In this document: one piece after another, positions 2,686 through 51,900 of the stretch
How the letters are laid out: the number at the start of each line of letters is the position of its first letter
Position numbering within the stretch: the first letter of the stretch is position 1
From: Cliona cf. orientalis
Taxonomy: Eukaryota; Porifera; Demospongiae; Clionaida; Clionaidae
Reading direction: 5' to 3'
Assembly (NCBI GenBank): GCA_963930775.1
Contig: OZ005702.1
Coordinates: 2,790,001 to 2,854,000 of the forward strand
DNA length: 64,000 nt
Translations under genes and position numbers: made by a program
The notes under the pieces: generated by a model
What the model was told of the DNA's origin: nothing
The model's input: the letters and a program-made list of their open reading frames with translations, nothing else
Databases searched by the model: none

Positions 2686-3077
2686 TACCGTAGAAACTGG
2701 TTGTTAAGCGCATGCGCTTATAACACGCAGCAGCAAGAAAATATGCGCTTAATAAAAAGTATGCGCTTAACAGGAAGCATGTGCTTAATTAAAAGTGCTA
2801 AAACACGGTAGGTGGGGCGTGCGTAAAGAACGTGTCGAGGATAGAAAGGCCTACAGCGATGGCCAAGGAGCGACCAGAGAGCGTAATTCTTGACGTTTTC
2901 TTCTCCAGCCTACTTCTAGCCTTCTTTCTGGGCTCGTGTAACCGATTGCTTGTCGTTCAGGTGGCTTGCTGTGTATGTGCGCCTAACAAAGAGCGGTAAA
3001 GCTCGCACAAAACTATGCGCTTAATAAAAAGTATGCGCTTAACAGCGAGCAGCGCTTAACAACCAGTTTCTACGGTA
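2686..3077. mobile_element. MITE, GCGCTTAA family, copy 1
   Basis: 392 bp with inverted ends TACCGTAGAAACTGGTTGTT and its complement, so CCGTAG...CTACGG flanked by TA, as expected for a TA target-site duplication. The interior holds many copies of GCGCTTAA/TTAAGCGC. A second copy of the same length lies at 28063-28454. There is no transposase; it is non-autonomous. Confidence 0.88.
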
Positions 3078-4200
3078 TGTGTGTATTCATAACAGTTGTA
3101 TGTGATACTGGTTACGTGTAGTTAGGGCTAGCTCTCACTGGCTTGAATTTCAAATGGTGCCAAATTGAAAAACCACAAAAAATTGCACTTGGTGCAAAGT
3201 GTGCCCTTTTCTCAAATCAGGTCACATCACTGCTTTGTGGCCCCCTTCTCATTAAATAAAAAATTTGCCGCTGCCAGATTTATTTATATGTTCAGACCTA
3301 CCTAGCATTGTTGAAGCATACTCAGTTGCATTTGTCTGAGTGAAATTGAAAAATTTTTTAAAGTGAAAACGAAGAGAGACAAACCAATCATATTGCCCCC
3401 ATCCATATGAATGTATACCAGTTAAAAATTGGTACCTCGACTGAGCATCAGAAAGGACAATGGAAAATTCAACAATAAACATTTCAGAATATATTTGAGC
3501 TGATTAGTGTGCCCAGAGACAGAAGAATCCCTCTCCAGTATTCACAACAATTCTACCACTGGAACTGATTTGGAGATAACTGGAGTACCCTTCAAACTGA
3601 TCAACCCTGTTTTTCTACAAGTTGCTCATATTTCAGATCAATATTTTCACTGAAATCCTTGTTTGGATCATAGTCTTGAACAGTGTCCTGATTAGAAGCA
3701 TTTCTTTCCATACTGGGTTGAAGACAGGGCACGGATTCTTACGTGATCGTTTGATCTGAGGAGTTGATGCTTACTGCTTCACTAGGGCGGTCCACTGGTC
3801 ATTCATGTTATGTTGCAGAAAAAGAACCACTGATTGCTGTTCCCATTTCTTATAGTATGAGATGGTAATGTTGGAGTTCAACACTAAAGCAAATAGCATG
3901 CAGTGCAGACCTAGTCTAACTACAACTACAATTTGACTTGACTCAAGAAACACAGAGGTATTATTAAAAGGATAGAGAATAGACTTACAGACTGACAAAG
4001 TTATGACTTAATTTTGTGTGCTATAGGTTACGGTTTTTGTGTAGGCTCTTACTAGGCATTTTGATTGTTCTTGTGTAGACTTATGTTGGCTCTTTAATTC
4101 CTGTTTCATATTGTTTCCTTTTATTGTAACAATGTATCTGTTCTATGGTTGGGCCTCGCATCAATACTTCTGGTATATCTTTTACATGTTGTTTTCAAGT
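3078..4200. other. No gene seen
   Basis: AT-rich sequence with only short open frames. The minus strand of about 3780-3560 reads partly like protein but has stops and no recognisable domain. Confidence 0.5.
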
Positions 4201-48900: not shown

Positions 48901-51900
48901 GCCCGATAAATCTGTCATATATACGTTTTTGCATGCATGTTCGATTTCATGGGTGTGGCTTGGGTGTGGTCAGCGTTATCCAAACTTCTTGCTTATCCGA
49001 ACGGTTTGAAATTTCCCCTCGGTTAAAGGGGTTTGGATAATCGAGGTTGGACTGTACTCCAAAACAAGTAATCGGACATAGGTATGTGTACAAGAGTATA
49101 ATACTCTTGGCTATTGGTACATGTACTTGACAATGTGTTGGTAAAACACGCAAGATTACTTTAGCAACTAGTCAGAGTTAGTAAAGATGTTTACTGGTCA
49201 TTACACACACTTGGTGGTTCTATCTCATGTACAGGCATGAGAAAACTACTCTTGGTGACATTTCTAGTATTGGTGCTTCCATATACATTATACAGAATTC
49301 CTGGATTTGATGGCGATTCCAAAAATTGCAATTTCATATCAATATCTTGGCTATGGTAGTTAAGTAATAGTGTGTTGCGGTACAAAACTACATGTCTACA
49401 TACTTTCCACAGACTTACAAGTAGTAGAGAGTGTTTGAGCCATCGAAACATCCTTCAGCAAGATACTCTATTGGGTTTGAGCTCAGCGCCCTATGTGGAG
49501 GAGAGACAATGAAACGAGGGCATAGATATAACAGAAATACATGGGAAAATATTTTATTACAATGACAGTAGTTTTCGTGATAGATAGAAAGTCCGTAGCT
49601 TAGCCAGTGAGCTTACCTGCATGTACCTCATTATTGTTGTACATAGCATGATGTTGTTCAGGCTATATTGCATGATTCTGACTGTGAGTAGGTGATCAGT
49701 GCACAAAATACCGTATTCGCTCGATCAGACGCCGCGGCTACTATTTATTTCATCGTCCGAGTTTGTGCGGCGTTTATTCGAGAGCGGCGACTATTCAAGA
49801 GCGGCGTTTATTAATACCAGTAGCTGCCAGAGAGACAATCCTTTGAGAAACGGTCGATTGATACCACTGATCTAGGAGATTCCGGCCCCTTTGCTGATGT
49901 AAAAGCAAGTTAGAACTTGTTCTAGACTGTTTATCGTGTGCCTGCCATTGAAAACGAGTCGCGAGGCATGTCCACGTGCTGGTGTTCTTGAATAGTAGGC
50001 GTGGCGCGGCTACTATTCGAGAGCGGCGACTATTTCGTTCAACACTTCTGGAGGTGCGGCGACTATTCGAGAGCGGCGACTAATCGAGAGTGGCGTCTGA
50101 TCGAGCGAATACGGTAAGTAGCAAAGTGCTTATGACAGTAAGACCTGCCATTTGCACACAACTTATGCAGTTGCAACAAATGAACTTTGAGCCTATTTGC
50201 ACTATTCTGACCAGTATAGAGAGTGATTCTTTAACTTATGCCCTCCAGGCGAGGATTACTATTTGACACTACGAAATTATCACGTGCTTACAACTGCAGG
50301 AGTCTTGGGAGATTCCTAAATGGTTTATTCCCAACACTAGAGAGACGGTTGCTGTTCAATAGCCTGAAACATAGAAGCATAACACGACACAGGTTATAGT
50401 GGAAATTAAAAGGCAATCCACACACACAAACACGGACATAAACTCACTCACACATCATACATGTATACTCAGTATCGCAACCAGTGTCAAGTAACTCTGC
50501 CCTCACCCATGATTGGTCGATCAGAGATGTTAGTTGATAACTGAGTGTGGTCTATCAACTAACAATTAATGGTCCACTTCAATACCCCCCCCCCCCCTTC
50601 CCTGTCTCAATACTAGAAGAAACTTACAGATATAAAACCTCAGGAGTGTTTTGGAAGACACCATCAGGAACAGCTGTCAGTTGGTTGTATCCAAGATTGC
50701 TGTATATATGCGTGTGCATGAGTGTGTGTGTATGTATAAATTCAATAATATGTGAGCGAATTTGAGAAAAGGGGTAACTTCGCGCAAAACGCGATTTTTT
50801 GTCACTTTTCAGCCTACCACCATTTCAAGCCAGTAAGAGCCCTAGGCTTCAGACTTGGTTTGCAAGCAGTTTGGACCTTCTACTTCACAGATCCAACGTT
50901 AGAAGCTAGAGCAAGCCTCCTGTCCCGAGCGGTGAGCCGCCAAAGAGGGCCATAAAACGGCGTTTTTCGAACGCGATCGACGCGCGCGCTTGCCCCGCCC
51001 ATACAGGAAGTGGGCGGGGCTCGCGATTTGCAGCGAGTGTAGTAGGATGATGGAAGAATATTCATGCCAGGTTTGAAGTTCATAGCTGCTATGGTTCCAA
51101 AGTTATAAGCGTTTTAAAACCAAAATTCGGGAAATGCGCGAAGTTACCCCTTTTCTCAAATTCGCTCACATATAGTACAGCAGGAATTTTGTATGGTGCA
51201 CAATCTTGTGGATTTCAGATTACCCCCTATAGAATCTTGCTAAAGTACCATAATATACACTACATCTCTTACAGCAAGCTCAATTTCTTGAGATTATGGA
51301 AAGTATTTGACTCCAGACAGGATATCCTGTTGCTATTCAGCCACCTGCATATGGACAGAAAAAATGTAGAAAGGTCAGACCAATCCCAAATACCTGCCCA
51401 TGAAGGTATATAGACTCGCAGCCATAAATGGTAAAAGCCATTTATTAGGTGTCTATCCATGATAAGCTTGAGTAGAATCAGGGAAATATGCATCATCTAT
51501 TAGGGGAGAAAAGCAGGCACTTCATCTTTCTGGACTTCTCTGGCTAGCTAGCAATCAGCTCACAGATAAAGGGGACCGGATAATCAAGGTTACACTGGAC
51601 ATGATATCTATAAGCAGCTATTATGAATGATGTCACTAGTACTACCGGGATACTACTAGACTTGTAGTAGAGGGCTGTGAACAGTGGATAAAACAAGGAG
51701 ACAGTCTACTCTGGATCACACTAGTGTCATATTAAGCCACTTGGCACAGACAGCAGATCACATGTATGCAACATGGCCTCTATACATGTGCGACATTGTA
51801 CATTATACCAACTATAACATAATACAGACAAATAAATGCAATTATCCGGTGAATACCATGTCTAAATATATACCACCCACTACTATTCTTAAACTGATTT

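Follow-up and report, generated by a model that had tools for sequence, protein, structure and literature searches.

Transposons of the pogo superfamily are described, in the accessible part of PMC7386202, as having a catalytic spacing of DD29-56D, and their Passer family (Gao et al., in the same paper) as carrying either BrkDBD together with HTH_Tnp_Tc5 or Tc5 alone, with TA duplications and, almost always, DD35D. The same excerpt records CENPB, POGZ, POGK, and JRKL as domesticated from this superfamily. A further parallel is provided by the Stowaway miniature inverted-repeat transposable elements (MITEs) of rice, whose many TA-inserted families with short terminal inverted repeats (TIRs) are served by Tc1/mariner-type Osmar transposases, according to the available part of PMC3660474. 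The present analysis deals with a group of elements with CCGTA tips in a 64-kb stretch of the sponge Cliona cf. orientalis (GenBank assembly GCA_963930775.1, contig OZ005702.1, positions 2,790,001 to 2,854,000), hereafter the window, to which the coordinates refer; the genome searches covered 217 Mb in 149 contigs.

These elements are very probably internally deleted, non-autonomous MITEs that belong to different families within one clade of the pogo superfamily (IS630-Tc1-mariner). The observations that support this are the tips themselves, the duplication of TA, the full-length relatives of 7 of the 11 window families, the restriction of the tip to one clade, and the inner ends, which track the transposase. 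The group thus consists of a clade and its miniatures, a kind of system that is already known, in which the two-gene full-length elements are the new part. It resembles the rice system in its many families, but the Stowaways are described, in the same partial source, as orphans that lack cognate autonomous elements, whereas most of the window families have a relative. The tip CCGTA was absent from the transposon literature among the matches listed, and from the accessible part of PMC7325037.

The CCGTA-ended elements of the window

The heptamer TACCGTA or TACGGTA occurs 28 times in the 64 kb, against a mean of 3.38 and a maximum of 10 in 200 dinucleotide shuffles, and is the commonest of the 180 CpG-bearing permutations of its letters, when reverse complements are counted together. 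Matching inverted pairs within 1.5 kb number 11 (nine elements and two cross-pairings of a nested pair), against none in the 200 shuffles. The group of elements that begin with TA-CCGTA and end with TACGG-TA, as reported in an earlier note on this DNA, is therefore real, given this excess and the presence of both ends at 10 of the 11 starts listed there; at 9700, only the left end is present, with no recognizable right end inside 1.2 kb. A twelfth element, placed by the note at 18365, does have a fitting right end (TACGGTA), but is better started at 18369, with a decayed left end (TGCCATA). The two variants recorded in the note are also borne out, with ends TACCATA and TACTGTA at 32554-32776 and TACCATA at 41401, where the right end is decayed near 41547, so that decayed ends are found in three elements (18369-18796, 32554-32776, and 41401-41547). 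The variants CCATA and CTGTA would each be a single step of CpG decay away from CCGTA. An Rfam scan of the window gave no match at the gathering score. The elements are as follows, with the strand given where one was assigned.

2686..3077, MITE of family A (TACCGTAGAAACTGGTTGTTAAGCGC), with a perfect 26-bp TIR; both ends are homologous to the L058 element
9700..9800, plus strand, family B, left end only; 86% over 101 bp to the end of the L062 element
18369..18796, MITE of family H; left end decayed (TGCCATA), right end TACGGTA; no partner found
19815..20034, MITE of family I; both tips present; 112 ends genome-wide
22031..22108, left half of a MITE of family J, interrupted by Gypsy; matches the 41401 copy
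22109..26633, plus strand, Gypsy long terminal repeat (LTR) retrotransposon within the family J MITE; 284-bp LTRs, 99.6% identical; open reading frame at 22408-26337
26634..26742, right half of the family J MITE; matches the 41401 copy
28063..28454, second MITE copy of family A; both tips; ends homologous to L058
28792..29013, MITE of family B; both ends 83-86% over 91-94 bp to the L062 element
32554..32776, MITE of family G; ends TACCATA and TACTGTA; both ends match the L052 element
38695..39042, left part of a family C element, the outer of a nested pair; matches L074 from base 17 inwards
39043..39589, MITE of family D, at a TA inside the family C element; matches L078; empty sites
39590..39663, right part of the family C element; 89% over 74 bp to the end of L074
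40018..40570, MITE of family K; its relative L086 holds a nested piggyBac, for which this copy is the empty site; no partner found
41401..41547, MITE of family J with decayed ends; left end TACCATA
43966..44176, MITE of family E; both tips; weakest partner match (L063)
49709..50116, MITE of family F (TACCGTATTCGCTCGATCAGACGCC); both ends match the L065 element

The insertion site is seen in empty-site comparisons. In L025, a relative of the 38695 element is interrupted by the 2350-bp transposase-bearing element, for which window 38755-38900 is the empty site, with a single TA, and window 39043-39589 is absent from L025, L074, L075, and L082, where the flanks join with one TA remaining. These clean sites establish that the tip is CCGTA and that TA is duplicated, in agreement with the insertion at TA proposed earlier; the empty sites of L001 and L063 are weaker, with gaps or mismatches at the junction. 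The pairings 38695-39589 and 39043-39663 were rejected as elements, given that a nested arrangement, with 39043-39589 inside 38695-39663, fits the empty sites. The interrupted family J element (22031-26742) keeps both tips, and its halves match the 41401 copy. The Gypsy at 22109-26633, with its 99.6% identical LTRs and 1309-codon open frame, is a recent insertion into this MITE. A Pfam scan of the 102-codon frame inside 39043-39589 was uninformative.

Grouping by ends gives 11 families, which is fewer than one per element: 2686 groups with 28063, 28792 with 9700, and 22031 with 41401. The earlier note, which listed these elements as unrelated, is to that extent corrected. Nor are the families of 2686, 38695, and 39043 unrelated, as their ends align to one another's full-length relatives (approximately 67-81% over 60-115 bp). 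Eight families, those other than 38695, 43966, and 32554, were counted in the genome using end patterns of 25-27 bases on both strands, with up to two mismatches (up to three for 19815 and 18369). The numbers of ends were 719 for the 2686 family, 112 for 19815, 679 for 22031, 1119 for 40018, 477 for 18369, 477 for 49709, 1263 for 39043, and 1926 for 28792 (with the L062 end pattern), and the control patterns, read backward, recovered no end for any of the eight.

Full-length relatives and the transposase clade

Searching the genome for DDE_1 (PF03184) yielded 210 candidates, of which 150 were scored places, and the loci fetched, numbered here with an L, comprise some of these places and relatives of two transposases; L002, L005, L008, L039, L045, L046, and L059, which overlap other loci, are excluded from the list of elements. 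Eighteen two-ended TACCGTA elements were delimited, together with two that have one variant end (L072 and L076) and one with TACTGTA ends (L069). By BLAST, 7 of the 11 window families match both ends of a 2.2-3.1 kb element with a pogo-type transposase gene, intact or broken, so that the gene with the same termini, for which the earlier note had advised a search, was found for these seven. The 2686/28063 family matches L058 (2179 bp) at 80-81% over 133 bp and 86% over 101-107 bp; 28792/9700 matches L062 (3105 bp) at 83-86% over 91-101 bp, with 9700 by its left end alone; and 32554 matches L052 (2644 bp, with its own ends TACCGTA) at 77-80% over 74-96 bp. For 38695, the relative is L074 (84% over 125 bp, 70% over 239 bp, and 89% over 74 bp), for 39043, L078 (2248 bp; 96% over 113 bp and 85% over 112 bp), and for 49709, L065 (2331 bp; 84% over 165 bp and 94% over 102 bp). 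The match of 43966 to L063 is the seventh (76% over 87 bp and 86-88% over 42-43 bp). The transposase frames are open over 454 codons in L058, 451 in L065, 510 in L062, and 478 in L064, a near copy of L063.

In the 10 elements scanned with Pfam, DDE_1 was found in all, and HTH_Tnp_Tc5 in seven (L025, L031, L034, L047, L058, L065, and L085), four of which (L031, L034, L065, and L085) also have BrkDBD; no such DNA-binding domain (HTH_Tnp_Tc5 or BrkDBD) was recovered by Pfam in L061, L062, or L064. In the remaining elements, DDE_1 is implied by the route of discovery, through PF03184 or as relatives of such proteins. The catalytic spacing, read by an automatic pattern in 20 CCGTA-type rows, is 35 in six, 36 in seven, 34 in one, and 43-45 in five, where an earlier D was probably taken, with no pattern match in one. 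The elements therefore have the DDE_1 domain, the TA duplication, and a spacing inside the DD29-56D of pogo, but the DD35D of almost all Passer members is found in only 6 of the 20 rows. Given this mixed spacing, and the lack of a Pfam DNA-binding domain in L061, L062, and L064, they are referred to here as Passer-like within pogo, rather than as Passer. They resemble pogo and Passer, as described in the accessible parts of PMC7386202 and PMC9976928, in DDE_1, the TA duplication, the short TIRs, and, in seven of the 10 elements scanned, HTH_Tnp_Tc5 with or without BrkDBD. The open transposase frames of the clade have 451-510 codons, in elements of 1.9-3.1 kb. They differ in the spacing of 36, not 35, in 7 of 20 rows, in the three elements with no DNA-binding domain detected, and in a second, HIRAN-like frame, of which these parts of the two papers make no mention.

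When 64 DDE_1 domain pieces of at least 110 residues were placed on a maximum-likelihood tree with a midpoint root, 32 of them formed one group, with support of 100/99: all 18 CCGTA elements, both variants, L069 with its CTGTA tips, and 11 unassigned rows. All 20 two-ended elements with CCGTA or variant ends are thus in one clade, while all seven CAGT-ended elements (six CAGTG and one CAGTA) lie outside it, with 25 unassigned rows. An earlier tree of 58 rows (at least 120 residues) agrees, except that L035-L037 were then labelled as one-ended CCGTA; as CCGTA-ended transposases these loci were rejected, given that their lone TACGGTA belongs to a neighboring MITE, whose left end, seen in L039, which overlaps L035, is TACCTTA. 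The TIR searches took any repeat that starts with TA, so the contrast in tips does not come from seeking CCGTA alone; later loci were scanned for TAC...GTA ends. In this genome, then, CCGTA is the tip of the whole clade, and the inner ends are specific to each family, which upholds the earlier description of five shared bases followed by ends peculiar to each family.

The anatomy of the ends was compared in 54 ends from 27 two-ended TACCGTA elements, in which the seven letters of the tip are invariant because they were required. Beyond the tip, one position is nearly fixed, with G at position 21 in 47 of the 54 ends. The inner ends, after TACCGTA, are more alike in elements with closer transposase domains (rho 0.59 over the 153 pairs of 18 full-length elements, a value reached in none of 5000 permutations, with the near copies L063 and L064 included and shared ancestry uncorrected). 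Such a correlation would be expected if the inner ends co-vary with the binding modules while the catalytic domain maintains the tip. The pair of helix-turn-helix motifs at the N-terminus of the transposase would bind the inner end of its own family, at roughly positions 8-26, and the catalytic domain would cut at TA|CCGTA; with cutting at the tip and binding at the inner ends, the tip alone would be common to the whole clade.

Several points weigh against this account. The evidence comes from one genome. The tree has 183 columns, with long branches flagged as meeting, and 11 of the 32 rows of the clade have no two-ended assignment. A pogo-type element inside the clade (L069, 573-2401) has matching 22-bp TACTGTA ends, and appears to be a fixed variant of the tip rather than a product of decay, as both ends agree. 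The transposase frames are broken in L052, L074, and L078, the left end of L058 departs from the TIR of its family, with 11 of 17 positions matching its own right end, and the match of 43966 to L063 is short and the weakest. Four families (18369, 19815, 22031/41401, and 40018), some of them very abundant, have no proven partner.

The earlier note had suggested that one Tc1/mariner-like transposase, recognizing CCGTA together with a DNA structure, mobilizes all the families. The five bases common to every tip and the four partnerless families, three of them abundant, are in its favor, but seven families have a full-length relative of their own, with family-specific ends, and the inner ends follow the relatedness of the transposases, which makes this a very improbable explanation. 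What stands of the suggestion is that transposases of the wider IS630-Tc1-mariner kind serve the group; the single transposase is unsupported. The note had named, as a finding that would refute it, an autonomous partner with distinct ends for each family; the ends are indeed distinct in their inner part, but not in the five tip bases.

In a mixed case, the families with partners would serve themselves and the four orphans would be cross-mobilized by the transposases of related CCGTA families, as rice Stowaway MITEs are moved by non-cognate Osmar transposases in the available part of PMC3660474. Such cross-mobilization of the four is possible, although the mixed case as a whole is considered rather unlikely. 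The orphan ends are plentiful (679 for 22031, 1119 for 40018, 477 for 18369, and 112 for 19815), and 100 listed places from each total were compared with the DDE_1-type places. Among these, no place of 40018 has a DDE_1-type neighbor at up to 4 kb, and just two of 18369 do, both facing away from it. Against the mixed case, partners may have been missed with 100 places listed per family, or may have decayed, and candidates do exist outside DDE_1-type places. Two ends of 19815 with no listed mate lie 1269 and 1369 bases away, in an orientation that is consistent, as judged from coordinates only (C11:5262905 near C11:5264174, and C3:7147367 near C3:7145998, the latter with an end of the 49709 family also close by, at 0.2 kb). 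One end of 22031 (C2:2783753) is 3036 bases from C2:2780717, a weak case. Among the other listed neighbors, some ends face away, and the rest belong to small, complete MITEs next to a transposase.

That the shared tip reflects the convergence of unrelated transposon superfamilies is scarcely credible. A long copy of the 40018 family, L086 (4207 bp), does encode a piggyBac-type transposase (DDE_Tnp_1_7), and a second long copy, of 4.4 kb, exists at C1:26678089-26682519, but in the one long copy that was read, the piggyBac is nested in the MITE. The MITE is split at a TTAA duplication, at a place where window 40018 is uninterrupted, and the insert has its own 17-bp inverted repeats, which take in the TTAA at each side, so a piggyBac origin of the family was rejected. 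The 20 CCGTA-type elements placed in the tree carry DDE_1-type domains, which also speaks against convergence, though such domains were how the elements were found.

A HIRAN-like second frame and its Ulp1-like extension

The CCGTA-type elements usually have a second reading frame, related to HIRAN-domain proteins. When the L063 frame and one of 131 codons from L034 served as tblastn queries, a relative was found inside 19 of the 20 CCGTA-type elements, with weak matches in L025 (E 4.4e-4) and L031 (E 1.6e-4) and none in L085. This frame is convergent with the transposase gene in 17 elements and divergent in two (L031 and L065), and is broken in several. It is also present in two of the seven CAGT elements (L012 and L019), and was not found by tblastn in L069, the window, L001-L008, L086, or the 17 loci of a third, unended DDE_1 group.

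L061, L063, L064, and L066 each have, opposite the transposase gene, a frame of 333-336 codons that matches HIRAN (PF08797, E 5e-6 to 4e-5), above the curated score in three of the four. HIRAN was also the best Pfam match of all 10 additional frames free of stops (E 6.5e-8 to 5.6e-3), of which seven come from two-ended CCGTA-type elements and three from L017, L022, and L048; four of the 10 reach the curated score. Altogether, 7 of 14 frames (L056, L061, L063, L066, L072, L076, and L077) have at least the curated 24.7 bits, and seven (L017, L022, L034, L047, L048, L064, and L078) have less. In an alignment of 14 frames, the others share 41-51% identity with the first, and N72 and a GH pair are invariant. 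Nonsynonymous change is proportionally rarer than synonymous change in all 120 pairs of 16 frames, with synonymous change near saturation (dS below 2.5 in 11 pairs). Of the 97 places that a genome search with PF08797 listed, 24 have a DDE_1-type place at no more than 4 kb, where 0.67 would be expected, and 19 of these 24 are convergent with it. The other 73 places lie more than 4 kb from any listed DDE_1-type place, and several HIRAN frames of 98-113 codons with equal scores suggest other repeated carriers.

The second half of the 333-336-codon frames aligns with an L062 frame that matches Peptidase_C48 (PF02902, E 2.7e-5), the only one of the five for which Pfam reports this domain, with none in L061, L063, L064, or L066. 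Four residues (H146, D164, Q196, and C202 in the numbering of L062) are invariant in all five Ulp1-like frames, and are presumably the catalytic four of the Ulp1 (C48) proteases. The Ulp1-like domain adjoins the HIRAN-like part in all five; in L062, this part is directly upstream, in another frame, and the 249-codon frame itself gave no HIRAN by Pfam.

A profile of the 14 frames, searched against the Protein Data Bank, matched HLTF HIRAN chains alone, and weakly (E 0.057-0.094). The likeness to HLTF, as given in the accessible part of PMC4666394, is in the core motif around N..D..A..V....VGH, whereas the present domain stands in a short frame or a HIRAN-Ulp1 frame within a transposon, with no SWI/SNF motor. 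In HLTF, the change of NN to AA abolishes fork reversal, according to the same part of the paper. The NN of the HLTF-matched stretch may be this pair, in which case its second N would correspond to the invariant N of the transposon frames. Ulp1-like cysteine protease domains borne by transposons are described, in the accessible part of PMC2836005, for Ginger1 and Mutator, which have other types of transposase, unlike the pogo type here, where the domain has a frame separate from that of the transposase and a HIRAN-like domain as its neighbor. In the open-licence literature searched, no paper pairs HIRAN with pogo, the sole match for HIRAN and DNA transposons, from its accessible part, concerns a fungal genus, and the matches for pogo, Ulp1, and transposase concern Ginger and Crypton only.

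These findings suggest two-gene pogo transposons with a conserved, usually convergent small HIRAN-domain gene, joined in one subclade by a SUMO-type (Ulp1-like) protease. The HIRAN-like product may help at the 3' ends of the transposon or at replication forks, and its binding to 3' ends or fork junctions would link excision or insertion to replication and to SUMO control. No accessory system of this sort is described for pogo elements; the proposal is tentative, and is given slightly less than even credence.

Neighboring features and implications

Other repeats and one coding frame lie among the CCGTA elements. A short hairpin that opens with TACCGTA, TACCGTAACCCTCG(T/C)GCATGCGCCGAGGGTTAAT, is found at window 2308 and at 1323 in L060, and is possibly another family; at 2308, no recognizable partner end was found inside 1.2 kb. 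The short inverted-repeat element at 32860-33216, beside CCGTA elements, has ACAGTGCAACCTCGATTATCCGG ends and repeat units of 15-16 bp, and looks like a Tigger-type MITE. A large inverted repeat at 29480-30329 has 91-bp arms, 93% identical, and tandem units of approximately 12-42 bp. On the minus strand, at 6544-7947, a 467-codon frame matches the Mutator-like transposase PF20700 (E 9.6e-62).

From what had been a puzzling catalog of MITEs, a rule emerges that is open to checking elsewhere: within this clade, the five bases of the tip go with the catalytic lineage, and the roughly 20 bases after them go with the family, making the respective roles of the cutting and binding domains directly testable. 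To our knowledge, no accessory factor of this kind is known for pogo elements, and the second gene, if it is active in transposition, would represent one.

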